From NCBI GenBank assembly GCA_021770095.1, contig JAETRQ010000012.1, forward strand, positions 1 through 64,000: a stretch of 64,000 nt of DNA, read 5' to 3'. Origin of the DNA: Eubacteriaceae bacterium. Lineage in GTDB: Bacteria > Bacillota > Clostridia > Oscillospirales > Acutalibacteraceae. Each line of letters starts with the position of its first letter. Within the stretch, counting starts at the first letter, position 1. A program made the translations under genes and the position numbers. This document shows, piece after piece, positions 13,581 to 63,925 of this stretch. The notes beneath the pieces are model-generated. The model was given only the letters and a program-made list of their open reading frames with translations. It ran no database searches and was not told the origin of the DNA.

Positions 13581-13732
13581 ATTTATATTGCCTGTTTATT
13601 ATACTTATACTTCGCTTTATTGTCAAGTATGGTCAAATTAATATTTTATTTAATAATTTTGAAAAAAGTTGAGACACTTTTGATTTTTACTCGTCTTTAT
13701 ATATGAGATTAAATGTGAAGGAGGATAAATAT

Positions 13733-15508
13733 ATGTGGAAAAATGCACGCTATATGCTCTCAAACTGGATAAAGTGGGACAGAAAAAGTCTTGTGTATTT
13801 TATAATCCGAGTGCCTGCAATGGTTTTGCAGCCGATTATAACAGCATATATACCCAAGGCAATGATAGACTGCATAAATGAAGGTGTCACAGTCGGCAGA
13901 TTAACATTTGTTGTTGCCATGCTCAGTGTACTTGTTGCACTTACTACTTGGCTTACACCCTTTATGCAGGAACTGCTCAACGGCAGTGCAAGAATAATCC
14001 GTATGCGGTATGCTGTTATGGCGTTTCGCAAAAATCTCTCAACAGATTATGTGAACATTGAGAGCCTTGAGGGAAGAGAGCAGAATAAAAGAGCAATGGA
14101 TTTTTACCGGAGTTATTATTCCTCGTCTGCCGATTTTATTGATACCTGCAATCAGCTGCTTGTTTGTGCTGTTGGTGTCATAACCTCTCTTGCGCTTATC
14201 TATAAAATCAATATTACCATGATATTGATTATTCTTGCAACCTGCGTTGCTGAATTCTTTTTGCTTAAATATTTGAATAAAAAAGAAAAAGGCGTTAAAG
14301 ATGCAAGAGGCAGTATTTTTGTTAAATTCGATTATTACTATTCACTCAGCAAGGATCTGACCGTTTCCAAAGATATAAAATTATATGGCTTTGCGGATTA
14401 TTTTATATTTTCTATCGCAAAACTGATTCAGGGATTAGAGGATATAACGTCAAAATATATGCATCAGAGTGTTTCGGTCGGCGGAACAAGGGCACTTTTA
14501 AATCTTGTTCGTGAACTTGTTGCATATGCTTATCTTACATATTTGGTGTGTTCCGGAAGATTGTCCGTATCGGATTTTATTTTCTATTTCGGAATCATAA
14601 CAGGATTTTCAAATTGGATTATGAATTTTGTATATTTATATTCCAATATGGAGCGTTGCTGCAATGACTGCGATGCTTTCCGCAAATTTATTGAAAGCAG
14701 TGAAGAAAGCCGCAGCAAGCCTGATATTGATTTTGAAAGTGTTGAGTCAGTCGAATTCAGGAATGTTTCGTTTGCTTATCCGTCTGCTGAAAAAGTCACG
14801 ATAAATAATATGTCATTTAAAATTAATAAGGGCGAAAATATCGCAATAGTCGGTGAAAACGGTGCCGGCAAAACAACTGCCATAAAACTGTTGTGCGGTC
14901 TTTATTATCCTACCGATGGCGATATTCTTATCAATGGGAAAAGCAGCCGTGAATTTTCATCCGACAGTTATTTTGATTTGTTCTCAGCAGTTTTTCAGGA
15001 TTATAACTTTTTGCCGATGACGGTTGCCGAAAATATCTGTACTACTGCAGACTATGATATGGAAAAACTCTATTCTGCATTTGATAAAGCAGGCATAATG
15101 GATAAAATAAACAGTCTTGATAAAAAAGAAAAGACGCTTATGGTCAAGGATGTCCACAAGGATGCAGTTGATTTTTCAGGCGGTGAAAAACAAAAATTAT
15201 TACTTGCAAAGGCTATTTACAAAAATGCTCCTGTGCTTATTCTTGATGAGCCAACTGCTGCTCTTGACCCGATTGCAGAGAATGAACTTTATTTAAAATA
15301 TAACGAAATGACAGATAATAAAATATCATTTTTTATTTCTCACAGACTTTCATCAACCAGATTCTGTGACAGAATTCTGTTTATAAAAGACGGCACTATT
15401 GCCGAAAGCGGAACACATGCACAACTGATGGCGTTAAAAGGATTGTATTACAGAATGTATCAGGTTCAGAGTTACTATTATAAAGAGATGGGAGGCGATG
15501 CAGTATGA
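13733..15508 (+). CDS. ABC exporter half-transporter 1
   Basis: A 591-residue permease-ATPase fusion: an N-terminal membrane domain with about six helices (residues 15-310) and a C-terminal nucleotide-binding domain. Walker A is GENGAGKTT (near residue 374), the signature is FSGGEKQKL (near 481), Walker B is VLILDEPTAALD, and the switch His is in ISHRLSS. The ATG at 13733 is chosen because AAGGAGG sits 8 bp upstream. It overlaps the next gene by 4 bp, and both lack an N-terminal peptidase domain, so the pair is a heterodimeric exporter of unknown substrate. Many gut Clostridia carry such pairs for peptide, lipid or drug export. Confidence 0.92.
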   Translation: MWKNARYMLSNWIKWDRKSLVYFIIRVPAMVLQPIITAYIPKAMIDCINEGVTVGRLTFVVAMLSVLVALTTWLTPFMQELLNGSARIIRMRYAVMAFRKNLSTDYVNIESLEGREQNKRAMDFYRSYYSSSADFIDTCNQLLVCAVGVITSLALIYKINITMILIILATCVAEFFLLKYLNKKEKGVKDARGSIFVKFDYYYSLSKDLTVSKDIKLYGFADYFIFSIAKLIQGLEDITSKYMHQSVSVGGTRALLNLVRELVAYAYLTYLVCSGRLSVSDFIFYFGIITGFSNWIMNFVYLYSNMERCCNDCDAFRKFIESSEESRSKPDIDFESVESVEFRNVSFAYPSAEKVTINNMSFKINKGENIAIVGENGAGKTTAIKLLCGLYYPTDGDILINGKSSREFSSDSYFDLFSAVFQDYNFLPMTVAENICTTADYDMEKLYSAFDKAGIMDKINSLDKKEKTLMVKDVHKDAVDFSGGEKQKLLLAKAIYKNAPVLILDEPTAALDPIAENELYLKYNEMTDNKISFFISHRLSSTRFCDRILFIKDGTIAESGTHAQLMALKGLYYRMYQVQSYYYKEMGGDAV

Positions 15509-17328
15509 ATAAGATAAAAACAATTTTTTCTGCATTTAAAGAGACGCACCGCCTTGAAAAACGTCTTATACCGACTTCAATTGTTGTTGCGGTAGTTATG
15601 GCTGTTATGCCTTTTGTGAACATCTGGTTTACATCCAAAATCATTGATTTGCTTGATACAGGTGCTCAGATGAAAGAGCTGATACTCTATATAACTTTAG
15701 CAGTCGGGATAAATCTTATACTGTTTTTCTGTAATAACTTTTTAGGTGATATGTATTTTATGTATCGTTCACTTATGTATAACAAAGAACTGCAAAGCAT
15801 ATCAAGAAAACTGTTTATGACAGAATACCAAAGGCTTGAAGACGGAGATTTCAAAGAACTTGTGCATAAACATTCAGAAGCACAGGATAGGGTGTTTTCA
15901 GCATTCGTTCAGTTCAGTTGGATGCTGCGTGATTTTATTTCAGGAATGATAACACTGATTATATCGGTTATTCTTGTTATTCCGTTATTTAAAATCGGAT
16001 TTAAGACCACGGGCAACACGTATTTTGAGAAACCCGTTTTTCTTCTTACCATATTCGGCGCAATCGCAGTAATGGTTGTTATCATTTTGATTGTTGCATC
16101 AAAGATGAATCGGGCATGGTTCAAGGCGTCTGACGAATATTCACGTCTTGACAGAATGTTCTACTATTTTCTTAACATGTTTTCGGATTACAACACCGGC
16201 AAGGAAATCAGGCTTTATAAAGAGCAGAATTTGATTGAACATACCGCAACAGATGTGTTATTGACAGACGGTGAGAAATTGCTGAAAAAAGTGTCTATGA
16301 ACAGTGCAAAGTCAAGTTCATTTGTCGCAATTCTCGGGGCTGTTGTGGGTTTCGGTGTTTATCTTTTTATTGGCGTTAAAGGTTTATACGGTTTATTCGG
16401 CATTGGTTCGCTGGTACTTTACTGCGGCAGTTTTATGCAGATTATAAACGGTATTATGAAAATGGCAACAACCTTTGGCAAAACGGAGGAAATGGTTCCG
16501 CTTGCCAATTATTATTTTGACATAATCAATACTCAGGATGAAATGACCTATGGAGATAAAGAACTTAATATTGATGAAAAATTTGAAATTGATTTTAAGA
16601 ATGTTTCATTCAAATATCCCGGTTCTGAAAACTATTCTCTGAAAAATATTAATATCAGAATTAATAACGGTGAACATCTTGCAGTTGTCGGCCGAAACGG
16701 AAGCGGAAAAACAACTTTTATTAAATTAATGTGCAGGCTTTATGATGTAACAGATGGTGAAATATGTATTAACGGAATTAATATCAAGGATTATACGGAA
16801 GAGAGTATCAACAGGCTTTATTCCGTTGTTTTTCAGGATTTCAAAATCTTTTCAACAACAGTTTCGGAGAACATTTCTGTCGGTAAAGAATATGATAAAG
16901 CAAAACTTCTTGATTCACTTGACAAAGCAAATATAAAAGAGCGTGTGCTAGCTATGGAAAATCAGGAGAACACTTATTTATATAAAGATTTGGATAAATC
17001 CGGTGTTGAAATTTCAGGCGGTGAAGCGCAAAAACTTGCTCTTGCAAGAGCATTATATAAGGATGCACCTGTTGTCATTCTTGATGAACCGACTGCGGCC
17101 CTTGATCCGATTGCAGAGAATGAAATTTACAGTCGTTTTAATTCTTTTGTACAGAACAAAACGGCGATATATATTTCTCACAGGTTATCAAGTTGTGCTT
17201 TTTGTGATAATATTGCAGTATTTGATAACAGCGAATTGGTTGAATACGGCACACATACCAATCTTATGAATATCGGCGGAAAATATTGTGAACTCTGGAA
17301 TGCTCAGGCGAAATATTATTCTGAATAA
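15505..17328 (+). CDS. ABC exporter half-transporter 2
   Basis: A 607-residue partner of the preceding gene (ATGA overlap). Membrane domain residues about 20-330; the nucleotide-binding domain has Walker A GRNGSGKTT (near 396), signature ISGGEAQKL (near 503), Walker B VVILDEPTAALD and ISHRLSS. The Glu after Walker B is present in both partners, so both ATP sites look catalytically competent, unlike exporters with one degenerate site. The first membrane loop is long and charged. A terminator follows at 17344. Confidence 0.92.
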   Translation: MNKIKTIFSAFKETHRLEKRLIPTSIVVAVVMAVMPFVNIWFTSKIIDLLDTGAQMKELILYITLAVGINLILFFCNNFLGDMYFMYRSLMYNKELQSISRKLFMTEYQRLEDGDFKELVHKHSEAQDRVFSAFVQFSWMLRDFISGMITLIISVILVIPLFKIGFKTTGNTYFEKPVFLLTIFGAIAVMVVIILIVASKMNRAWFKASDEYSRLDRMFYYFLNMFSDYNTGKEIRLYKEQNLIEHTATDVLLTDGEKLLKKVSMNSAKSSSFVAILGAVVGFGVYLFIGVKGLYGLFGIGSLVLYCGSFMQIINGIMKMATTFGKTEEMVPLANYYFDIINTQDEMTYGDKELNIDEKFEIDFKNVSFKYPGSENYSLKNINIRINNGEHLAVVGRNGSGKTTFIKLMCRLYDVTDGEICINGINIKDYTEESINRLYSVVFQDFKIFSTTVSENISVGKEYDKAKLLDSLDKANIKERVLAMENQENTYLYKDLDKSGVEISGGEAQKLALARALYKDAPVVILDEPTAALDPIAENEIYSRFNSFVQNKTAIYISHRLSSCAFCDNIAVFDNSELVEYGTHTNLMNIGGKYCELWNAQAKYYSE

Positions 17329-18541: not shown

Positions 18542-19600
18542 TTATTTTTCTTTATAGATCAATTTTTGTAAATCTGAATAACAGATATTGTTATTTTTAT
18601 TATTGTAGAATGTTAAATATTCTTTTATTTTACTTTTATTTCTATACCATAAGTTGTGAACACAGACTTTAAGATTATACAAATCAATCCAATCTGGTAT
18701 ATCAGCTTGGCTTATAAAATTATTTACTGCCGAATATAGTACATTATATCTTGGATATGGATAATTTGCAGTATTAACATCCCATTTTTTATTTAACATA
18801 ACATTATTAATATCATATAATAAGTCTGCTAATAGAAGGGAATAACCGACAGTGCTAATAGCGTTTTTTAGACTGTCACCATGATCAATCATAGTCTTTA
18901 TACATAAAACCGCACCAAGAAAGTCTGCTTCTAATTCATATTGAGATGGTGGTGTAGGTTTTGATAATAATTGATGTTCAAGAATTAAATGTGAGTATTC
19001 ATGAGCAACTATAAAAAAATAGTTAGAAATGGTTAAAGATGATGCAAAATCTAATGATTCCAATTGCTTACATTTTAAATATTTAGTAGTATCCATTAAA
19101 TCTTTGTTAATATAATAAGAACATGCTAAATCAATAAAATAATTATCTATTTTACCAACACTAAGATTATTCTTTTTATTATAGTAATATTGAGCTATAA
19201 TCGTAGAAAAAGCAATCGAAAAATGGATAATGGATCTACTAACTAAAATAATTCTATTATCATCTTTTAATAGAGAGGATGCATTATAAGAATTATATCT
19301 AATTGTACCAAGAATTGGCTTTTCGAAATTAAGATTTCGTCTAGGCATTGAAATGTGTTCATGTGATTCGTAGAGCAGATCCAAATGTTTCTTTAAGCAC
19401 TCATAGTAATATGGATTTTCATATTCTGTAGGAGTTTTAATTGTTTTTAGATGTTTTATGTATTTCGTATATTTTTCTTGTACTTCCTTTTCACTTACTA
19501 AGCCATCAAATGTTGTTTTAAAGCTTTCATAAGAATAATTGAAATCATTTTTTGTGTTTGTTTGTTTTTGTATTTCTCTTAATAAATCTATTGAATCCAT
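18542..19600 (-). CDS. HEXXH zinc metallopeptidase-like protein 1
   Basis: A 352-residue protein with a gluzincin-type active site: AHEYSHLILEH (His200, Glu201, His204) and, about 20 residues later, YELEADFLGA, which supplies the third ligand and the conserved Asp, as in M48-like or ImmA-like peptidases. The N-terminal 190 residues are helical and lack a signal peptide or clear membrane helix, so it is probably cytosolic. It is homologous over its length to the protein encoded at 24913-26027 (shared KP-L-GT block, a hydrophobic helix, HEYSH, E-x-D). It begins 4 bp after the small gene at 19605-19940 and must be cotranscribed with it. It is the first gene inside the element; substrate unknown. 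Confidence 0.75.
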   Translation of the reverse strand: MDSIDLLREIQKQTNTKNDFNYSYESFKTTFDGLVSEKEVQEKYTKYIKHLKTIKTPTEYENPYYYECLKKHLDLLYESHEHISMPRRNLNFEKPILGTIRYNSYNASSLLKDDNRIILVSRSIIHFSIAFSTIIAQYYYNKKNNLSVGKIDNYFIDLACSYYINKDLMDTTKYLKCKQLESLDFASSLTISNYFFIVAHEYSHLILEHQLLSKPTPPSQYELEADFLGAVLCIKTMIDHGDSLKNAISTVGYSLLLADLLYDINNVMLNKKWDVNTANYPYPRYNVLYSAVNNFISQADIPDWIDLYNLKVCVHNLWYRNKSKIKEYLTFYNNKNNNICYSDLQKLIYKEK

Positions 19601-19604
19601 GGTT

Positions 19605-19940
19605 TTATTTTTCTTTGTCTTTGCGTTTAAGTGTTATAGTTAATCCGGTTTGAGATGAAATATTTGAACCTAAAGATAATAAAGAAATCTGTCCTTCGAC
19701 TCCAATACTAACATTTAAGGAAATTTCATCTATTTCATAAGAGTTATTTTCACTACAACAATCTAAAGCACTACTGATTGATGATATAAAGTTATTTAAG
19801 TTTTCACCTAAAGTCTCAGCATCTATTGATTTGGTTTTAGGTACTATAATCTGTTTAATGTTTTTATCATCTAAGAAAGAATTTCCTAAATCAATTTTCT
19901 CGTAATCAAATGTTATATTAATGTTATTCAACAAAATCAC
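19605..19940 (-). CDS. Small CU044_2847/Trypco1-like protein
   Basis: A 111-residue protein. The C-terminal half (EISLNVSIGVEGQISLLSLG then TGLTITLKRK) has the pattern of the trypsin-co-occurring domain family (CU044_2847/Trypco1): a charged EIEI-type strand, a V-G-V-x-G segment, a small-residue turn and a final V-T-L-strand with basic residues. In other genomes such domains accompany peptidases in predicted conflict systems; here the partner is a metallopeptidase. This assignment is by pattern only. No strong ribosome binding site is seen upstream of the start. Confidence 0.55.
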   Translation of the reverse strand: MILLNNINITFDYEKIDLGNSFLDDKNIKQIIVPKTKSIDAETLGENLNNFISSISSALDCCSENNSYEIDEISLNVSIGVEGQISLLSLGSNISSQTGLTITLKRKDKEK

Positions 19941-20151: not shown

Positions 20152-20305
20152 TCATAGATAATTGAAATGAGTTAAGAGTAATCTATCATTTCTATTAATT
20201 AAATTTGCATGTTTGAAATAGAATATGCTAAATAAAAATATTTTTGTTACATTTTACTGTTTTCGACACTATATTATAAAGGAAGTTATTAAAATATAGA
20301 ATATA

Positions 20306-20330
20306 TACATTTTTGTCATAAAAATGTGTA
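20306..20330 (+). promoter_or_regulatory. Palindromic operator shared with the 60.7-kb promoter
   Basis: A palindrome with arms ACATTTTT and AAAAATGT around GTCAT/GTCA, ending 15 bp upstream of TTGACA at 20346. Almost the same sequence occurs at 60718-60742, 14 bp upstream of another TTGACA. The spacing to the -35 box is that of an activator or repressor site. Confidence 0.6.
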
Positions 20331-20345
20331 TTTTTGTATTTTATA

Positions 20346-20374
20346 TTGACATACCTATAATAATTTGATAATTA
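20346..20374 (+). promoter_or_regulatory. Promoter of the four-gene island
   Basis: TTGACA followed after 17 bp by a weak TAATTA (15 bp to GATAAT). Position about 50-75 bp before the first gene and below the palindrome at 20306. Confidence 0.45.
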
Positions 20375-20419
20375 AAAATAAAATGACAGTGTATATTAGA
20401 AACAATTTTATTTATAAAA

Positions 20420-21202
20420 ATGCGAATAATCTGGGGCGCACCTATGGAAAATAAACGACCAATTCCAAATAATAAAAAATTAAACAATCGAAAAGAAATA
20501 TTTGACAAGTATCAAAAACTGACTCCTATTTCTCCTTTTAATAACCCTCAATATTCATTAGGATTGGATGAAGGGAATAAAAAGACAGGAAAGAGCGGAG
20601 AAAAGTTTTCATTAATATATGTGTGGAATTTGCCGATTAGGGTTACTTGTCCAGGGGCTTCTCTATGGTGTGAGTCGCACTGTTATAATGCTGATGATAG
20701 AAAAGACATATATGATATGGATAAATGGTGTATTAATTGGTGGTGGGCTTTAAATGATATTTCTTATTTAGAAAAAACTATATCATTACAATTATCACAA
20801 GTTAATCATGAAAAAGTGGCTGTGAGGTTGCATTCATGTGGAGATTTCTTCTCCGTAGATTATATAGAAATGTGGCTCAGAATATGCCAAACTTATAGGA
20901 ATATCCATTTTTGGGGGTATACACGTTCATGGGCTGTTCCTACTTTATATAAATCAATTTCAAAGCTTGCTTCATATGATAATGTCCAACTATTTGCATC
21001 GTGGGACAATTTTATGATTGATGTACCGCAAGGATGGAGTAAAAGTATTGTTGTAAATTCTAATGAACAAATAAAGTCATATAATTGTGATGTGAAAAGC
21101 TCATTTGTATGCCCAGAACAATATAATTTAGTGAAAAGCTGTGCGGATTGTGCATTGTGTATCAATAAAACAAATAGAGATGTTATTTTCATATTGCATT
21201 GA
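20420..21202 (+). CDS. Gp88-like cysteine-rich protein
   Basis: A 260-residue protein resembling the phage gene product 88 family. Recognisable blocks are KTGKSGEKFSLIYVWNLPI, TCPGASLWCESHCYN, VRLHSCGDFFSVDYIEMW, FWGYTRSW and a C-terminal cluster SFVCPEQ...SCADCALC. The many cysteines in CxxxC and CxxC spacing suggest a metal or Fe-S site, but the family's biochemistry is unknown to me. The frame starts at 20420; the ATG at 20444 has GGGG 10 bp upstream and is an equally good start (252 residues). It is the first gene of a tight four-gene operon; the next start is 19 bp downstream, after AAGGAGCG. Confidence 0.7.
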   Translation: MRIIWGAPMENKRPIPNNKKLNNRKEIFDKYQKLTPISPFNNPQYSLGLDEGNKKTGKSGEKFSLIYVWNLPIRVTCPGASLWCESHCYNADDRKDIYDMDKWCINWWWALNDISYLEKTISLQLSQVNHEKVAVRLHSCGDFFSVDYIEMWLRICQTYRNIHFWGYTRSWAVPTLYKSISKLASYDNVQLFASWDNFMIDVPQGWSKSIVVNSNEQIKSYNCDVKSSFVCPEQYNLVKSCADCALCINKTNRDVIFILH

Positions 21203-21220
21203 CAAAAAAGGAGCGTAAAC

Positions 21221-22489
21221 ATGATCAACAATAAATTAATTATGGTTGGCGGTAATAGTGGAACTGGTAAAACAACTTTAGTTGAGACACTTATAGATTT
21301 ATATCCTGATTTCTATGCTCGTCCCATATCTTTTACAACGAGAAAAAAACGCCGCAATGAAAATGGGCATGAATATATTTTTGTAAGCAAGGAAGAATTT
21401 GAATATCTAGATAAAAGTAACAAACTATTAAATAGTGATTATGTTTACAATAATTATTATGGAATAGATAAAGAATCTGTTAATGAAATTATGGGTAAAT
21501 GTAAAAAAAATCCTATAAAGGAAATACATCCTAAAAACCATCAAAAAATAAAAAATAGTATTAAAAAAAATGCAATTTCAGTTTTAATTACATCTAATTT
21601 TGAAAACAAATTTCAAAATACTCGTTATAATGAAGATAATGATTATTATTGCTCTATCTCAATGGATGATTTTGATATTGTATTTAATAATGATAAAAAC
21701 ACTTCGATTTTACAGAACGCAAAAGATTTACATATTAAAATTAAAGCAGTCCTTAATGCATATGATACATTCCCGTCATCAGGAAAGATTGATTTAATAA
21801 ACAGAGAAGGATACAATAAAATAGCTAGTTGTTTTACCGAAGATAAAAGAATTACTACAAGAAATTTTCATCAATTAACGCAAACATTTTTTTTGAAATT
21901 TTTCTCTGAATATATACATTCATACAGCAATGTACTAGAAATAGGACCAGGGAATGGGTGGCTAATTAATACTGTGAATCCTATATGTGGAAAATATACA
22001 TGTTTGGATATTTCAAATAAGATGTCAATAAATCATAGTATTGATATGGTAATATCGAGTGTTAGATATATGCCATTTTCTTCGAGGTCCTTTGATGTAG
22101 TTGTTGCTTCTTTGGCAGACCCGTATTTATATCCTGAGGCTATATGTGAAATCAACAGAATATTAAAACCGGGCGGATATTTTGCCTTTTCAACCCCTTC
22201 GAAAGAATGGGCTGTGGCCCTTAGAGGAGATTCAAAGGAGAACAATAAAACAAAATTTGTTTCAGACGACCATGAAGAAATCAGTGTTTACTCTTTTACA
22301 TATTCAAATGAGGAATTAAATAAAATTATGGAGATGACTAATTTTACTAAGGTTTCTTTATCTTCTATAAAAGGTAAATCATTGACTGGTAACATATCAC
22401 CTGCTATTATCAATGCCGCGCAGAATATTAAAATTGATTACAGGGACTTAAATATAATAACAATTGGGATTTTTCAAAGAAAGGACTAA
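21221..22489 (+). CDS. Guanylate kinase-like/SAM methyltransferase fusion
   Basis: A 422-residue two-domain protein. Residues 1-185 match guanylate kinase: P-loop GGNSGTGKTT (near residue 9), the GMP-binding segment RPISFTTRKKRRNENGHEY and the following FVSKEEFE. The lid and distal parts are less conserved. Residues about 215-420 are a class I methyltransferase of the Methyltransf_11 type: motif I VLEIGPGNGWLI, acidic strand CLDIS, MPFSSRSFDVVVAS and NRILKPGGYFAFSTP. Both domains look active by motif. I know of no characterised enzyme with this fusion; it suggests methylation and phosphorylation of the same guanine-type nucleotide. Two bases separate it from the next gene. Confidence 0.8.
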   Translation: MINNKLIMVGGNSGTGKTTLVETLIDLYPDFYARPISFTTRKKRRNENGHEYIFVSKEEFEYLDKSNKLLNSDYVYNNYYGIDKESVNEIMGKCKKNPIKEIHPKNHQKIKNSIKKNAISVLITSNFENKFQNTRYNEDNDYYCSISMDDFDIVFNNDKNTSILQNAKDLHIKIKAVLNAYDTFPSSGKIDLINREGYNKIASCFTEDKRITTRNFHQLTQTFFLKFFSEYIHSYSNVLEIGPGNGWLINTVNPICGKYTCLDISNKMSINHSIDMVISSVRYMPFSSRSFDVVVASLADPYLYPEAICEINRILKPGGYFAFSTPSKEWAVALRGDSKENNKTKFVSDDHEEISVYSFTYSNEELNKIMEMTNFTKVSLSSIKGKSLTGNISPAIINAAQNIKIDYRDLNIITIGIFQRKD

Positions 22490-22491
22490 AT

Positions 22492-23310
22492 ATGAATACA
22501 TACAAAATATTAAATGAAAGTGTTCGTAGTGATGTTTTTAAAAGTGCGGAAACGCTAATAGAACTATATAAAAAAGGGGTTTTGGGTGGAGATATTATGC
22601 CAGAAGACTCTAATCCTAATTTGAAAAAAGATTCTGAAGAGAATTTTTTATATTTCACATTGCCAATGGCGTTGAATTACCAAAGAAATTCATATAAGCT
22701 TTGGGAATCTGCAAATTTAACATATAATGATGTAAAAACTTGTGATGTATTTAACCCTCAAAAGGTGGTTAATATGAATCTAGAAAAACTTAGAGATAAT
22801 CTACTAATGTATAAAGTTGCACTCCAACCTAATAAACATCCACAAATTTGGATGACTTTATGTCAAACATTTTATGACGAGTTCGGAGGTAGTGTAAAAA
22901 AGTTTCTCTATGATAATCAGTTATCTGTTGCTAATATAAAAAGCTATATGAATTCTAATAAAAAGAAATTTCCATATCTTTCAGGAACAAAAATTATGAA
23001 CTATTGGTTATATGTTATTGAACAGTATACTGATGTTAAATTTAAAGATCGTGAAGAAATTAATGTAGCACCAGATACTCATGTAATACAGGCAAGTTTA
23101 TTACTTGGGCTTATTGAGAAAGAAGATTTAAACAAACCAGAAATTAGAAATATTGTAAGTTCACTTTGGTATCAAGTGTTTGAAAATACAAAATGGTGTC
23201 CTATAGATATACATACACCACTTTGGTTATGGAGTAGAAATGGTTTTGTAGTGGAGGTGAATGGACATGGCGGAAAACTATCTGAAAGTGGGTTACAACT
23301 TCACTTATGA
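22492..23310 (+). CDS. HhH-GPD DNA glycosylase-like protein
   Basis: A 272-residue helical protein. The segment LSGTKIMNYWLYVI followed 20-30 residues later by INVAPDTHVIQASLLLGLI has the layout of the helix-hairpin-helix/catalytic Lys and Pro-Asp-Thr-His segment of HhH-GPD glycosylases, closest by eye to archaeal 8-oxoguanine glycosylase-like (AGOG) proteins. Queuosine nucleosidases share this fold, so a free-nucleoside substrate is also possible. The C-terminus has a further Trp/Cys-rich stretch (ENTKWCPIDIHTPLWLWSRNG). It overlaps the next gene by 44 bp, so the two are translationally coupled. Confidence 0.55.
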   Translation: MNTYKILNESVRSDVFKSAETLIELYKKGVLGGDIMPEDSNPNLKKDSEENFLYFTLPMALNYQRNSYKLWESANLTYNDVKTCDVFNPQKVVNMNLEKLRDNLLMYKVALQPNKHPQIWMTLCQTFYDEFGGSVKKFLYDNQLSVANIKSYMNSNKKKFPYLSGTKIMNYWLYVIEQYTDVKFKDREEINVAPDTHVIQASLLLGLIEKEDLNKPEIRNIVSSLWYQVFENTKWCPIDIHTPLWLWSRNGFVVEVNGHGGKLSESGLQLHL

Positions 23311-24385
23311 ACTTCTTAACTTTTTAATAACAATAAATAATTCTTCATATTCTAATAAAGTTTATGAGGTGTACGGGTCTTGTGCGGAAAACTCTTTTTT
23401 ATCAGCAAGACCTATTTATAGATTACCCAATATAAATAGACAAGAACTCAAAGGGCATATTACAAAGTTAAAAAAATTTGGAATTAATTTTAATTTTACT
23501 TTAAATGCATATAGTTTAGGAAGTAAAAAGGAAATTATTGATAACGAAAATACTATTAAAAACTACATATACTTTCTCATTGATAGTGGTGTAGAGACTT
23601 TCACTATTTCAGTACCTTTAATTGCGGAATATATACGTTCAATAAGTAATGACATTGGTATCGAAGTTAGTACCATTGCACATATAGATACTATAACCCA
23701 AGTAAAACTATGGAAAGAATATTATAACATCAATAAAATATGTGGAAATTTGTATAAAAACCGAGATATTAAATTTCTAAAGAAACTATCGGATTATTGT
23801 GAAAAAAATGATATTATTATATCCTTGTTAGCAAATGAGTTTTGCGTTAATGGTGTAATGTCTTCAGAAAATTGTTTTACTTCCGCTACTAATTGTATAT
23901 TCAGAGATCATTGCTATCAATTACATTCTTTAGGTTATGGTGTTAATGAAAAACTAATTAATGATTATCCTATGGGGAAATGTATTGACAGTAGAAGTGT
24001 AGAATCAATTTGGTTGAAATCAAATTTCATCAGACCAGAAGATATGAAATTATATAATGAAATTGGTATTAATCATTTTAAGTTAACGGGTAGAACTGCA
24101 TCTACTGATTTCATAAAACACTTGGTTACTTCGTATATGGAAGAATCTTTTGAGGGAAACTTATTAGAATTGTGGAAACATCTTGAAACAATTAATCCAT
24201 CTAGTAAAAAAGAATTTTTTATTCCGTATTCAATACCCAATAAAATGTTGGATGGCTTTTTAAATTTTTGGTTCAACAACGAAAATCATCTATGTTCTAA
24301 TGAGGTGTGTGGAGAAACTTGCAAATTCTGTGATAATTATTATTTGAATTTAATTAAATTGAGCAAAGAAGATTTGAATTTATAG
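23267..24385 (+). CDS. Peptidase U32-like Fe-S protein
   Basis: A 372-residue protein related to the U32 family (YhbU/UbiU/RlhA type). Blocks typical of U32 are the TIM-barrel repeats, EVSTIAHIDTITQVKLW where relatives have the stqlnitN strand, LLANEFCVNGVMSSENC with following TNC and HC cysteines, and GINHFKLTGR. Characterised relatives bind a 4Fe-4S cluster with such cysteines and carry out O2-independent hydroxylation of quinones or RNA rather than proteolysis. A second cysteine group (CSNEVCGETCKFC) ends the protein. The ATG at 23267 is chosen because GGAGG is 9 bp upstream; the ATG at 23261 is only 3 bp from it. Confidence 0.6.
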   Translation: MAENYLKVGYNFTYELLNFLITINNSSYSNKVYEVYGSCAENSFLSARPIYRLPNINRQELKGHITKLKKFGINFNFTLNAYSLGSKKEIIDNENTIKNYIYFLIDSGVETFTISVPLIAEYIRSISNDIGIEVSTIAHIDTITQVKLWKEYYNINKICGNLYKNRDIKFLKKLSDYCEKNDIIISLLANEFCVNGVMSSENCFTSATNCIFRDHCYQLHSLGYGVNEKLINDYPMGKCIDSRSVESIWLKSNFIRPEDMKLYNEIGINHFKLTGRTASTDFIKHLVTSYMEESFEGNLLELWKHLETINPSSKKEFFIPYSIPNKMLDGFLNFWFNNENHLCSNEVCGETCKFCDNYYLNLIKLSKEDLNL

Positions 24386-24528: not shown

Positions 24529-24897
24529 TTGATTATTAAAGTAAACATAAGATATACAAGTGATATTATTACGCAAGCAGATATAGATGAACTTAACAAA
24601 AAATCAAAAAATATCACCTAGTCACTTTTGAAATCACTAGGGTTTGTACAACTCCCTCCTGAATCAATACAAATTATATTCGAATTGACAAAAAATCTAG
24701 CCATTAGTGCTTTATATGATACTATAAAACTAGTAATATTATCAATAATTTCAAAATTTAGAGTAGGTGAAAAGAAAACTGTTCGCATATGTATCATAAA
24801 TAATAATAAAACATCGGAAATAATATTACCCTTTGAAGTTACAGAAGAACAGAAAGAACAACTTGTGAAAGCAGCTATAGAAAAATTACTTGAATAA
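24529..24897 (+). pseudogene. Small partner gene interrupted by an in-frame TAG
   Basis: One open frame of 123 codons except for a TAG at 24619-24621. The N-terminal 30 codons (KVNIRYTSDIITQADIDEL) start at TTG 24529 right behind GAAGGTG; the C-terminal 89 residues (ending EQKEQLVKAAIEKLLE) have no ribosome binding site of their own. It holds the same position, directly upstream of a HEYSH peptidase, as the small gene at 19605-19940. It is either a nonsense-mutated gene, a read-through gene, or a downstream protein starting at TTG 24628. I do not recognise the family. Confidence 0.5.
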
Positions 24898-24912
24898 GTG
24901 AGGTGATTAATA

Positions 24913-26027
24913 TTGACACCAAAAGAATTGTTAACAACTATTCAATTGTCATCAAACCATTTTGTTGAAAATAATTATGAACATTTAAAAATGATGAGAA
25001 AAAAATATTCTTCTGACGATAACTTTAAATTTACGGAGCGTTTATTTGATAGCTTGCCAACTGATTATCAAAATTCTCATTTTTACAAACTTATTGAGAA
25101 TTCTTTTCAAATTTTAGATGAAAATATACGTAATAAGAACATTGTTTATGGTAATCAAGTTATTCATTGCAAGCCGCTTCCTCTTTTTGGTACAGCAAAT
25201 TTTGAAGATTTTAATGCTTTTGTAACATCAGCTGATAAATCAACTGTTATAGTTTTCAATGAAGGTTTATTAATGTTTACTGAAAAGCTCATGGAAATAT
25301 ATACAAAAGAACGATGGTTAAGAAAAAAGATAAAATGACAGCGCATTTTCAAGAATTATTTACCAAAAACTTTATTGACATAATGTTGTGCTTTTATATT
25401 TATTTATTTCCTTATCATGCTAGAAGTTTAGAGTTTTGCGGAATTGAAGATTTGGGGGAATGGTTTTCAATAGAAAATGTAGAAAATTATGTCCCTCCTT
25501 TTGGAGATGAATTTCTTGAAGAAGATTATATATATTTTGCCAATCAAGTTAGAACATCCACATACCTTTGGTTTGCTGCTCACGAATATTCACATATTGC
25601 TTTAGGTCATTTAGAAATAAAAAACAGTACATTAAAGTCAAATTTTAGTAATACAGAATTAGAAAGAATATGTATAAGTCAGCAACATGAACTCGATGCA
25701 GATACATTAGCTACTATAATAACAATGGAAAGCAACAACTCTGAAGTTACATCGGAGGGCATTTGTTTAGCATTAAACACTTTGTTATTAGCTACTGTTG
25801 ATCAAAGGCCGTCAGTATATAGCAGTCATCCTCCAGTTGGAGTAAGAATTGATAACATTTTAAAAAATCCAATAATTAATAATAAATATATAATTAATAA
25901 TTATCACGAAGTCGAAGAGATATTCAGTGATAAATACAAAGCATTTCATAATATATTAAAGCAATTTAACGAGAATAATATTGAATTTTCGTCTATTATT
26001 GAAATGCAAAGATATATATATGATTAG
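24913..26027 (+). CDS. HEXXH metallopeptidase-like protein 2, split by a -1 frameshift
   Basis: Two overlapping frames together encode a protein of about 371 residues homologous to the 352-residue peptidase at 18542-19600. The first frame (24913-25338, TTG start after GAGGTGAT) carries the N-terminal part with KPLPLFGT and a helix like FNEGLLMFTEKLMEI. The second (from the A-run at 25323 to 26027) carries WFAAHEYSHIALGH and QHELDADTLAT, the zinc-binding motifs. The frames join at A AAA AAG, a canonical -1 slippery heptamer in the correct phase. It is either programmed frameshifting, a one-base deletion, or a sequencing error in an A6 run. It follows its small partner gene by 15 bp. Confidence 0.7.
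25323..25329 (+). promoter_or_regulatory. A AAA AAG slippery heptamer
   Basis: In the incoming frame the codons are AGA AAA AAG ATA AAA TGA. A -1 slip on AAA-AAG continues as GAT AAA ATG ACA into the zinc-binding half of the peptidase. The zero frame stops 7 bases later at TGA (25336-25338). I did not find an obvious strong stem-loop just downstream. Confidence 0.5.
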
Positions 26028-60717: not shown

Positions 60718-60742
60718 TACATTTTTGTCGAAAAAATGTGCA
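60718..60742 (+). promoter_or_regulatory. Palindromic operator shared with the 20.3-kb promoter
   Basis: Arms ACATTTTT and AAAAATGT around GTCGA, matching the site at 20306-20330 in sequence and in its distance to TTGACA (14 bp here, 15 bp there). Confidence 0.6.
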
Positions 60743-60756
60743 GTTTTGCAAAATGC

Positions 60757-60820: not shown

Positions 60821-60850
60821 AAGTGCATAGTTATACTATACGCTTTTTTT
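60821..60850 (+). terminator. Attenuator-like hairpin in the leader
   Basis: AAGTGCATAGT pairs with ACTATACGCTT (one wobble and one mismatch) around TAT, followed by TTTTTG. It lies 35 bp after the expected start of transcription, so it may stop most transcripts before the zinc-module genes. Confidence 0.5.
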
Positions 60851-61163
60851 GTTACCTTTTGACTTTTTTGATACTTATATATTTGAAAAAAGTTTTAAGA
60901 GGGTAATTCATGATGACAAGAAAATTATTGTTAAAATATCCATGTTTGTTTTTTATTCGGAAACAATGGCAATCATGGACAGAAAACTTGAACTGAGTGA
61001 AGGTATGGATGTAGCTTTGGTTAAGTGTTGCTTGGATGTTCTTGTAGACAGTGATAAAATCAAATCTTATCAAATTAATTATGGTGCAGTTATTTTTTCA
61101 AAGTTAATACAATTACTTATAATTTCAGTCATTAAAATTAAATACATAGAAAGAGGTTATATT

Positions 61164-62789
61164 ATGAAAAATTCAAACATGAGAGTCATACCGATGGATG
61201 ATTATGCTTATTTAACTAAAACAAAAGTTTCTCACAAGCAGTGTCCTATCTGCAAAAGAGAAGATATTGACGGTGCGATGGTTATTTATGGCGCTGACAA
61301 GAAACAAAGAACAATTATGTGCAATGCATGTTTAAATAAACTTGGAACAAAAGCGTTTATAACTGCTGTGAATGGTAAAAACGGATACAGAGGTAAAGCA
61401 ATTACTATTGAAAAATTGCAGAAAAAGCAAAAGTGCGCCTGTGAAATTGTATCACCGAGAAAAGACGGCTTTATGTTTCGTATTAAAGGTATGAGTTTTC
61501 CTGTATGTGCAGATTGTTTTGAGGATTTGCGTTTGGCAGTGCAGAATTATAATAATGGATACAATCCGATTTATATAAGCAACAAAATAAATGCAGCAGC
61601 CCATGAAAGAGAACAGCAAATTAACGATACTGAAAAGTATAAATCAAAATTAGACAAGGATTATATTTCCTTAAAAGAAAAATTGGAACGAGAAAAGATA
61701 CGAGAGATGCAAGCTCTTAAAGAATCAGTTCAGCAAGTTGAAGCTAAGGCAAAAAGTGATGGGCAGTTATTAGTAGAGAAATTACATAGTGCCGAAGAAA
61801 TAGAATTTTTCTATAGACTTGGAGAAACAGACAGAAATCGATTTATATCTCAACTTCAAGCCAAGGGATTTGGTAGAGCAGAATCGGAGATTAAACCTCT
61901 TGAATATAAGAATGATAAATTCATCAATTCACTGTTTTTAATAAGTGCGTTTCCGTTTATTCAATGTTCGTTGTCCCATCAAAACAATAAAAAGCCGCAA
62001 GCAGAATTTCATTTAAGATGCAAAAAGGATAATTATAATTCATTTAATTTTGTCGTTTGCAAAGAATGCTTATATAACCTTTACCAAGCCTTATTTGAAG
62101 TATTATCAGACAAAGCAATTAAGAATGTTACAAAGGATAATATTGCAATAGACAGAATGGTTGATGAACTGTCAAGATGCTATTCCTGCGGTAACTCTGA
62201 AGATTTGCTTAAAATACACTTTGGCGGTGCAGTTTTCTATTTTTGCTCTGATTGCGCAAAAAGATTTTATAACAAACTGGGCAAATTGATTTTCAAAATA
62301 GACAGATTCTTTCAGCCTCAAATTATAGTGGAAAAAGTTCATCCGAATTATAATGAACGAAAAATGGTTTGCAAGCAGGAACGCCAGTCTGTAAGATTAG
62401 TCGGCTATCCGGTTGAGAAATCAAGAAAAAAAACCGCTAAGTTTCAAATTGATAGATCCATATATCCTTCTGTGGAGTGTGAATGTATCGGTCATACAAC
62501 ATCGAGAAATTCTACAGCGGTAATAACAACGCAGAGAAACGATGATTTTTGCTTGGCTTTATGTAAAACTTGTGCTGAAAATTTACAGGATGCATTAAAG
62601 AAAAATAATTATGAGGAAAACATCGGAACATCAATATGGGTGCAAAAAAAGCCATGGGCGAATGGTGAACATTGCATATTTTGTGGTTTAAGCAGAGATG
62701 ATTGTAACAGAATCAGGGTCGGAAGTGTGGAATTTAACACTTGTAATTTCTGCAAAACCAAATTATTAAATGTATTAAAGCAAATATAG
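61164..62789 (+). CDS. Protein with six ClpX-like four-cysteine modules
   Basis: A 541-residue protein made of repeated units of the form CxxC, about 20-27 residues, then hydrophobic-C-x2-C-x-x-hydrophobic. Clear examples are CPICKREDIDG...MCNACLNKLG, CYSCGNSEDLLKIHFGG...FCSDCAKRFYNKL and CIFCGLSRDDCNRIRVGSV...TCNFCKTKLLNVL; the last is very like the ClpX zinc-binding domain. Others are partly degenerate. The middle (residues about 150-230) is a coiled coil (EREQQINDTEKYKSKLDKDY). AAAGAGG precedes the ATG. An in-frame extension to 60849 has no ribosome binding site. It forms an operon with its paralogue downstream. Confidence 0.7.
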   Translation: MKNSNMRVIPMDDYAYLTKTKVSHKQCPICKREDIDGAMVIYGADKKQRTIMCNACLNKLGTKAFITAVNGKNGYRGKAITIEKLQKKQKCACEIVSPRKDGFMFRIKGMSFPVCADCFEDLRLAVQNYNNGYNPIYISNKINAAAHEREQQINDTEKYKSKLDKDYISLKEKLEREKIREMQALKESVQQVEAKAKSDGQLLVEKLHSAEEIEFFYRLGETDRNRFISQLQAKGFGRAESEIKPLEYKNDKFINSLFLISAFPFIQCSLSHQNNKKPQAEFHLRCKKDNYNSFNFVVCKECLYNLYQALFEVLSDKAIKNVTKDNIAIDRMVDELSRCYSCGNSEDLLKIHFGGAVFYFCSDCAKRFYNKLGKLIFKIDRFFQPQIIVEKVHPNYNERKMVCKQERQSVRLVGYPVEKSRKKTAKFQIDRSIYPSVECECIGHTTSRNSTAVITTQRNDDFCLALCKTCAENLQDALKKNNYEENIGTSIWVQKKPWANGEHCIFCGLSRDDCNRIRVGSVEFNTCNFCKTKLLNVLKQI

Positions 62790-62809
62790 TGAATTTAAGG
62801 TATATGATT

Positions 62810-63925
62810 ATGGGAAAAGAAAATATCTGTAGTAATACAATAAGCCACTTGGAAGTAAGGAAGGAAGATATTAAAAAGTGGGCAGACAGAATAGAAAAGG
62901 AAATTGATAAGGAAACAAAGTATCCTTATGACAAAGAAGAACGGAAGATAAATAAAAAATTTGTCTACCTTATTAAAGAGGGAAAAAACAAAAACATTCG
63001 CATTACATATAAAAAGGAATTCAAATCCTTTTCGTATGTAACTTATTCATGCATTCGAGGGGTTAGTTGTTCAGTTGGAAATCATAATGGAACAATCGAT
63101 TCTCGTTTGATTATAAGCAGTAACCGATTTGATTATTTTGATTTTGCATTTTGTAAAAAGTGCTTAAATGATCTTATTAACATTATTTTGGACTTCTATC
63201 ACCATGACGATATACAGCTGTCAAGAGAAGGAAACATTAAGATAACTACGGAAGATGTTGATGGACAGTGTATTTCCTGTGGCAGTACAGCATGTAAATA
63301 TGATGTTACAATAGGCAACAGATCATTTGTGATGTGTAGAAAGTGTTTTGAAAAATTTTGTGAGAATGTTATGAATACTTCTGCCGTTCGGGAACTGTTT
63401 AGACCAAAGTATAAAGAATTCCGTAAAACGATTCAGGAAGAAATTACTCAATCGGAAAATGATAGAATACTTAATAATCTTTTTATCCCTGAAAACAGGG
63501 ATAGAGTGTATTCATTTATGTTAAACAAATTTGGTGCGCAAAATATAGATAAGTTTTCTTATATTCCTGTTCATGGAATTAAATGTAATTTCTGTGATGA
63601 AGAAAGTCAATCTGACGCTAAAGTAGTTTTAGGAACTAACCGGGAGCATAATATATTAGCGTTAGCATATTGCCCGGAATGTGCTAAAAAAATAAACGGA
63701 ATTTTGCAGCGTTCTATTGAAAATGCAAAAACGATTTATAATAAAGAAAAACAAATCAGGTGCATGGTGAAAAGCAAGTTTCCTCGTGCTAATTACTGCT
63801 ATATTTGTGGAAGCAAAGAAGGACCCGTGTTTCGTATAACACATGGAAATTGCTCATTTTCACTCTGTGAAAAATGTGTAAAAAAATATGTTAATCAATT
63901 AAAATCTATTTCAGAAATCGAATAA
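62810..63925 (+). CDS. Paralogue with four ClpX-like four-cysteine modules
   Basis: A 371-residue paralogue of the preceding protein. Modules are visible at CSVGNHNG...FCKKCLNDLI, CISCGSTACKYDVTIGN...MCRKCFEKFC, CNFCDEESQSDAKVVLG...YCPECAKKING and CYICGSKEGPVFRITHG...LCEKCVKKYV. The N-terminus (60 residues) is basic and helical. I start at ATG 62810, 9 bp behind TTAAGG. With ten modules over two adjacent genes this is a duplicated array of zinc domains; substrate or partner unknown. Confidence 0.7.
   Translation: MGKENICSNTISHLEVRKEDIKKWADRIEKEIDKETKYPYDKEERKINKKFVYLIKEGKNKNIRITYKKEFKSFSYVTYSCIRGVSCSVGNHNGTIDSRLIISSNRFDYFDFAFCKKCLNDLINIILDFYHHDDIQLSREGNIKITTEDVDGQCISCGSTACKYDVTIGNRSFVMCRKCFEKFCENVMNTSAVRELFRPKYKEFRKTIQEEITQSENDRILNNLFIPENRDRVYSFMLNKFGAQNIDKFSYIPVHGIKCNFCDEESQSDAKVVLGTNREHNILALAYCPECAKKINGILQRSIENAKTIYNKEKQIRCMVKSKFPRANYCYICGSKEGPVFRITHGNCSFSLCEKCVKKYVNQLKSISEIE

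Follow-up and report, generated by a model that had tools for sequence, protein, structure and literature searches.

What does a tight four-gene operon of nucleotide and iron-sulfur (Fe-S) enzyme families do on a conjugative element of a Eubacteriaceae bacterium? The operon occupies 20420-24385 of the stretch analyzed here (the window), the first 64,000 bases of contig JAETRQ010000012.1, and reading of its open reading frames (ORFs) gives four genes, P1 to P4, arranged head to tail behind an operator:

20307-20341, plus strand: operator, 35 bp with an 8-bp dyad, ACATTTTT..AAAAATGT, 78 bases before the P1 ORF
20420-21202, plus strand: P1, ORF of 260 amino acids (aa), a GP88-family cysteine protein
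21221-22489, plus strand: P2, ORF of 422 aa, a fusion of a guanylate-kinase-like P-loop kinase and a class I S-adenosylmethionine (SAM) methyltransferase
22492-23310, plus strand: P3, ORF of 272 aa, HhH-GPD-type by its predicted model
23261-24385, plus strand: P4, ORF of 374 aa, U32 family, with a probable start at 23267

The answer tentatively favored here, with less than an even chance of being right, is that the operon is a one-off antiphage cassette of a conjugative element and acts on free nucleotides; the order of its steps and their target are as we infer them below. The genes are separated by only 18 bases (P1-P2) and 2 bases (P2-P3), and the overlap between P3 and P4 is 50 bases, or 44 from the second ATG of P4, so the tight operon described in an earlier note on this DNA is real. 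That second ATG, at 23267, is more likely to be the start than the one at 23261, because GGAGGTG lies at 23253-23259 and the relatives of P4 begin at about this point. The operon genes have a G+C fraction of 0.26-0.33, against 0.358 for the window, which also encodes a MobL relaxase, a conjugative coupling protein and a TraG/TrbE-like ATPase; the operon is low-GC cargo of a conjugative element, as the earlier note had supposed in placing it on a mobile one.

Why defense? Independent support for the defensive role proposed earlier comes from the operator, whose start at 20307 adjoins the first base, 20306, that the note had assigned to the cluster. The motif consists of the 8-base dyad followed by a promoter-like stretch, with a TTGACA -35-like box after it at 20346-20351. 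As DNA, 20303-20345 has a hairpin z score of -3.41; in a simple promoter scan, the operon region scored no higher than shuffled sequences. No occurrence of the operator pattern is expected by chance in the window, where a second, weaker site with 3 mismatches lies at 60719-60753. In a DNA search of 80 genomes of the genus, only some 45-70 bases before P1 matched outside the operon itself, and the 35-base pattern was found at 18 sites in 11 of the 80 genomes, this one included, while the reversed pattern, used as a control, was found in none. Besides the site of P1 there are thus 17, three of which (L170, L175 and L181) end at contig ends, leaving 14 that can be read. At nine of these 14, a gene downstream of the operator matches PADLOC at E ≤ 1e-5:

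L177, gene after the operator: dGTPase, 3.3e-51
L167, gene after the operator: dCTPase-type (dCTP deaminase), 2.2e-74
L162, gene after the operator: OLD, 1.3e-26
L182, gene after the operator: Toprim-ATPase, 5.8e-41
L179, gene after the operator: TIR effector, 5.1e-11
L158, gene after the operator: TIR-like, 8.7e-6, with PDC-S31, 4.2e-9
L178, gene 1.25 kb from the operator: PDC-S35, 4.5e-8
L160, second gene after the operator: viperin-like radical SAM, 2.1e-11
L163, gene after the operator: viperin-like radical SAM, 6.6e-10

The two viperin-like matches may reflect generic radical SAM similarity. Of the remaining sites, one has a weak match (L166, 5e-4), two have none (L172 and L180), and two that lay outside the PADLOC scan (L176 and L183) were counted as without a match. 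Ten other genes of the window, a control not matched for cargo genes, gave no PADLOC match at 1e-5 and one at 0.008. Judged from these sequences, the shared dyad operator with its promoter apparently marks a defense regulon of the genus.

Two operator sites precede orphan genes without matches in Pfam (at 0.001) or PADLOC (at 0.01). Under the second site of the window, at 60849-63925, lie two genes of 646 and 378 aa, a candidate for an unknown defense pair. The other is a gene for a 2250-aa protein downstream of the operator at L161:925-7677, on the minus strand.

Where does P4 come from, and what might it do? It matches Peptidase_U32 of Pfam at 1.2e-9 (38.3 bits, cut-off 22.4) and, in PHROGs, phrog_5757 at 8.6e-98. 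Relatives with at least 80% coverage occur in 218 of 50,697 phage records, with 38-43% identity among the matches listed, and in no plasmid record. At E ≤ 1e-15, a match is found in 2 of the 295 genomes searched from the order and in 3 of the 398 from the phylum, in both cases counting this genome, which encodes two further U32 proteins. In a tree these two group with RlhA, TrhP, UbiU and UbiV of E. coli, the last two of which serve ubiquinone synthesis; L002, L022 and L032 were excluded from the tree and four long proteins were trimmed to 330 residues. P4, in contrast, clusters with the phage rows (15 rows, support 96/94), and within this group it stands beside the Straboviridae rows with a support of 92/79, below the star level of the tool. 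It forms a long branch of unusual composition, and because of the long branches the deep joins of the tree are uncertain. By sequence, P4 belongs to the phage phrog_5757 lineage of U32 proteins.

The cysteines at residues 195, 212, 218, 241, 345, 350, 354 and 357 of P4 are kept, as in the phage rows; the first four are present in all 14 of these, with C218 aligned to a Cys of TrhP and RlhA and C195 one column off. The E. coli enzymes lack the C-terminal four-Cys site, CX4CX3CX2C, which P4 has in common with every phage row and with three distant rows from bacteria. TrhP and RlhA carry out a prephenate-dependent C5-hydroxylation of RNA pyrimidines, according to PMC6599085. Three distant relatives of P4 sit in what look by eye like biosynthetic clusters, one (L039, G499) next to radical SAM genes and an ORF rich in Trp, Tyr and Asn, the others (L038, G316; L040, G292) beside adenylation- and glycosyltransferase-like genes.

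The phage relatives suggest a substrate. In four annotated phage loci the U32 gene lies near a kinase and a gene of 299-303 aa, which from its place we take to be the arabinosyltransferase. (A candidate relationship of the 299-aa neighbor to P3 was rejected on testing.) An arabinose-5-phosphate or phosphosugar isomerase is annotated in three of the four, as is a TS-family gene, an assignment checked by Pfam in two of the loci. In RB69-type phage DNA, the arabinose is attached to 5-hydroxy-deoxycytidine through the oxygen at C5, and formation of 5-hydroxy-dCMP is ascribed to the TS-family enzyme (PMC13390438). For this reason, and since three phages with a putative arabinosyltransferase lack U32, the phage U32 protein is not claimed to be the sole source of 5-hydroxy-dCMP.

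A chorismate mutase gene follows the U32 gene within about 0.5 kb in 11 of 18 phage loci (L018, L021, L022, L023, L025, L026, L027, L028, L029, L030 and L140). The CM_2 domain was confirmed by Pfam in two of the 11 (1.7e-11 and 8.2e-8), and the other nine were recognized by a profile grown from those two; as many of the phages are closely related, the 11 are not independent. No such gene turned up in the stretches fetched for L002, L019 and L020, which are Mosigvirus or close to it, for L024, or for L031-L033, which are copies of one virus, nor in any of three controls with an arabinosyltransferase-like gene and no U32. The product of chorismate mutase is prephenate, and the pairing suggests that prephenate feeds 5-hydroxycytosine formation in the arabinosylating phages. 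On the virus fragment L033, the U32 ORF overlaps a kinase/dCMP-deaminase fusion by 4 bases and a dUTPase/MazG-like gene is adjacent (an Aat-like neighbor, 29 residues at E 2e-4, was not counted); no TS gene is present on L031-L033, a weak negative as these are fragments. The phage U32 protein most plausibly takes part in a prephenate-linked hydroxylation that acts on nucleotides, because of the pairing with chorismate mutase, the prephenate dependence of TrhP and RlhA, and the context in L033. Among the open PubMed Central (PMC) papers listed, none was seen to connect U32 or chorismate mutase with the modification of phage DNA; such a link may be in print elsewhere. Phages L138, L139 and L141 have arabinosyltransferase-like and TS-family genes, with neither U32 nor chorismate mutase in the fetched stretch, and may carry a different linker on cytosine.

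If P4 inherits this hydroxylation, what base would it act on? The U32 lineage points to a pyrimidine and not to guanine, because of the cytosine-hypermodification context of the phages, the chorismate mutase pairing and the prephenate requirement of TrhP and RlhA. A modified guanine nucleotide had been proposed earlier, and it is disfavored from two sides: TrhP and RlhA act on pyrimidines and the nearest relatives of P4 accompany cytosine modification (PMC13390438), while P2 has lost most of its guanine contacts. The kinase part of P2 matches Guanylate_kin at 3.5e-18 (66.4 bits, cut-off 25.2) and retains the P-loop and the phosphate-binding residues. Aligned with the yeast enzyme (1ex6 numbering), it keeps S34, R38, R41, Y50 and Y78, and is changed at E69 (Asn), S80 (Ile), D98 (Glu) and D100 (His). 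The guanine contacts of yeast guanylate kinase are S34, E69, S80 and D100, of which only S34 remains; since the other three are altered, GMP is probably not the nucleotide that the kinase binds.

The second part of P2 (Methyltransf_11, 1.2e-12) is a generic class I domain that also matches PADLOC mad2 (1.7e-11) and a phage "tRNA methyltransferase" family (1.2e-7), and because of the latter its target may be RNA. The fusion was found nowhere else: this genome is the sole match among 98 relatives (E ≤ 1e-25) and among 398 genomes of the phylum (E ≤ 1e-22), 13 phage records match the kinase part only, and no viral contig matches.

P3 has no Pfam match above cut-off; with E up to 1, AGOG alone is listed, at 0.006. 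The solved fold nearest to its predicted model is Qng1/DUF2419, the queuosine-5'-phosphate N-glycosylase, at 12% identity, and a comparison of the P3 profile with solved structures by sequence gave chance matches only. As no profile rises above cut-off, the HhH-GPD assignment is drawn from the predicted fold and from motifs read by eye. The domain content given in the earlier note is largely borne out, with profiles behind GP88, kinase/methyltransferase and U32, and a model and motifs behind P3, and the four do belong to, or fold like, nucleotide, nucleobase and Fe-S enzymes. The model of P3 is nearer to a glycosylase of free nucleotides than to one of DNA. Across the 13 rows of the P3 alignment, which holds 12 of 14 loci (L014, partial, and L016, truncated, were excluded) and the window, K167 and D195 do not vary, and by position they would be equivalent to K199 and D231, the catalytic Lys and Asp of Qng1 according to the titles of mutant structures in the Protein Data Bank. 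P3 is absent from plasmid and phage records, and no match was confirmed in viral contigs. Its family (L003-L015), unnamed, strongly conserved and with a Qng1-like predicted fold, occurs in Enterococcus, Vagococcus, Paenibacillus and metagenome-assembled genomes.

P1 matches the GP88 profile of Pfam at 4.8e-25 and has two Cys sites, C77/C84/C88 and C231/C241/C244/C247; a radical-SAM-like fold is tentatively assigned. Two candidate identities were rejected, viperin (no PADLOC pVip match up to E 1) and a DNA methyltransferase (unsupported). A scan of viral contigs with the single sequence found nothing, and an alignment-based scan gave 95 loci, of which 80 were kept; 68 of these 80 form the alignment, after exclusion of proteins that were cut, identical or outside 190-330 aa. 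At L056:6432-8289, a GP88-profile match of the three-Cys kind lies directly 3' of a gene resembling TcmP, possibly a conserved pair.

How could four such proteins work together? In the favored reading, the cassette would make, process and limit a modified free nucleotide. P4 would use prephenate and an Fe-S cluster to oxygenate a pyrimidine nucleotide at C5, with dCMP or CMP as the likeliest substrate. P2 would methylate this product, phosphorylate it, or both, on the way to a triphosphate by which phage nucleic acid is damaged or marked, and P3 would cleave the modified nucleotide as a safety valve or for salvage. P1 would add a further Fe-S step of a radical-SAM-like kind. The dyad operator would hold the operon off until relieved, perhaps on infection. 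In its most specific form the proposal would be a viperin-like principle reached with other enzymes: upon infection, oxygen-free, prephenate-driven hydroxylation by an enzyme of phage lineage gives a pyrimidine nucleotide that is oxygenated and perhaps also O-methylated, and this is phosphorylated to an antiviral triphosphate, while a Qng1-like glycosylase protects the host. In that full form it is unlikely.

Several observations weigh against a dedicated pathway. The earlier note had expected a conserved four-gene neighborhood, and the genes are not conserved together: the set was found nowhere else searched. A second gene of the four is absent from all 14 P3 loci (up to 8 kb on each side, some contigs being shorter), from all 80 viral GP88 loci (up to 3 kb) and from all 24 U32 and phage loci; two further P3-family loci, one on a 3.5-kb contig, have no other operon gene beside them, and the operon body occurs in one of the 80 genus genomes, its own. 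The cassette is therefore a single case, possibly a young assembly. Within it, P4 has Ser188 where the other rows have Glu (21 of 23) or Gln (2 of 23), and the Glu at this position (E162 of TrhP) is essential in TrhP and RlhA, as reported in PMC6599085; a chorismate mutase was also looked for in the window, without success. The hydroxylation reading passes from the phage proteins to P4 with this caution. Could P1 to P4, then, share a promoter and no pathway, for example with P3 as an acquired stand-alone nucleotide glycosylase? Such a chance stack of cargo is somewhat unlikely and ranks close behind the favored reading; the scattered loci are what it would predict, whereas the short gaps and the P3/P4 overlap, and the fact that three of the four parts independently indicate nucleotides, speak for a joint function.

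It is improbable that the element instead hydroxylates and caps its own cytosines against host restriction, as the arabinosylating phages do. The phage relatives of P4 do sit in a cytosine hypermodification cluster (PMC13390438), and C5-cytosine and D12 N6-adenine methyltransferases are encoded on the element as well. On the other hand, a search of this genome for the putative phage arabinosyltransferase, run without a positive control, gave no relative, no TS-family or sugar gene is present among the neighboring ORFs scanned, and a conjugative element would need the nucleotide pool of a living host to be modified. Quite improbable is the converse, a defense in which the modified nucleotides brought in by phages are recognized and broken down, hydroxylated or arabinosylated dCMP being what P3 would cleave. 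The likeness of the P3 model to a modified-nucleotide glycosylase, the phage lineage of P4 and the occurrence of the operator before dCTP-deaminase-type and dGTPase-type genes would fit, but a hydroxylase would create a modification rather than remove it, and the relatives of P3 have no partner genes in common. Least probable, and by some way doubtful, is a small nucleoside natural-product cluster that releases a base or nucleoside. The biosynthetic-looking surroundings of distant P4 relatives recall one, as does an ABC-transporter-like gene pair, read by eye, at 13703-17328; this pair lies outside the operon, which has no exporter or resistance gene of its own, and the operator is associated with defense-type genes.

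The operon is flanked on both sides by modules of conflict-system types:

18542-19940, minus strand: Pepco/metallopeptidase-like module, left of the operon
24628-26027, plus strand: Lit-like module, right of the operon

The earlier note took both for peptidase modules. Pepco (1.4e-13) on the left and the PADLOC Lit match (3.3e-7) on the right stand, whereas the metallopeptidase matches of the protein adjoining Pepco, and the M48 match of the protein on the right, are below cut-off.

If the favored reading is true, the operon adds a new, oxygen-independent enzyme set to the nucleotide-based antiphage systems, and an enzyme of a phage-hypermodification lineage has been turned against phages. Apart from the operon, the phage U32/chorismate mutase pairing offers a direct way to test where the 5-hydroxyl of arabinosylated phage DNA comes from, and the shared operator provides a handle on the apparent defense regulon of the genus, through which unknown defense genes can be sought.

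How does the set compare with known systems? P4 is up to 43% identical to the phrog_5757 U32 proteins of Straboviridae, several of which have arabinosylated cytosine, over nearly the full length and with the cysteines kept, but it has Ser for Glu and no adjacent chorismate mutase, TS-family enzyme or arabinosyltransferase was seen. With TrhP and RlhA it shares the Pfam family and the expected chemistry; it differs from them in lacking the essential Glu, in its C-terminal four-Cys site and in its distance in the tree. P2 resembles guanylate kinase in its P-loop and phosphate-binding residues and departs from it at three guanine contacts and in its fused methyltransferase. P3 shares a predicted fold with Qng1/DUF2419, whereas no sequence-profile match and no tie to queuosine was seen here. 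Finally, the operon would act on free nucleotides, as do viperin and the antiviral dCTP deaminases and dGTPases, and the same operator precedes genes of these kinds in the genus; its enzymes differ from those of viperin and other nucleotide-based systems, and P1 is not a PADLOC viperin.

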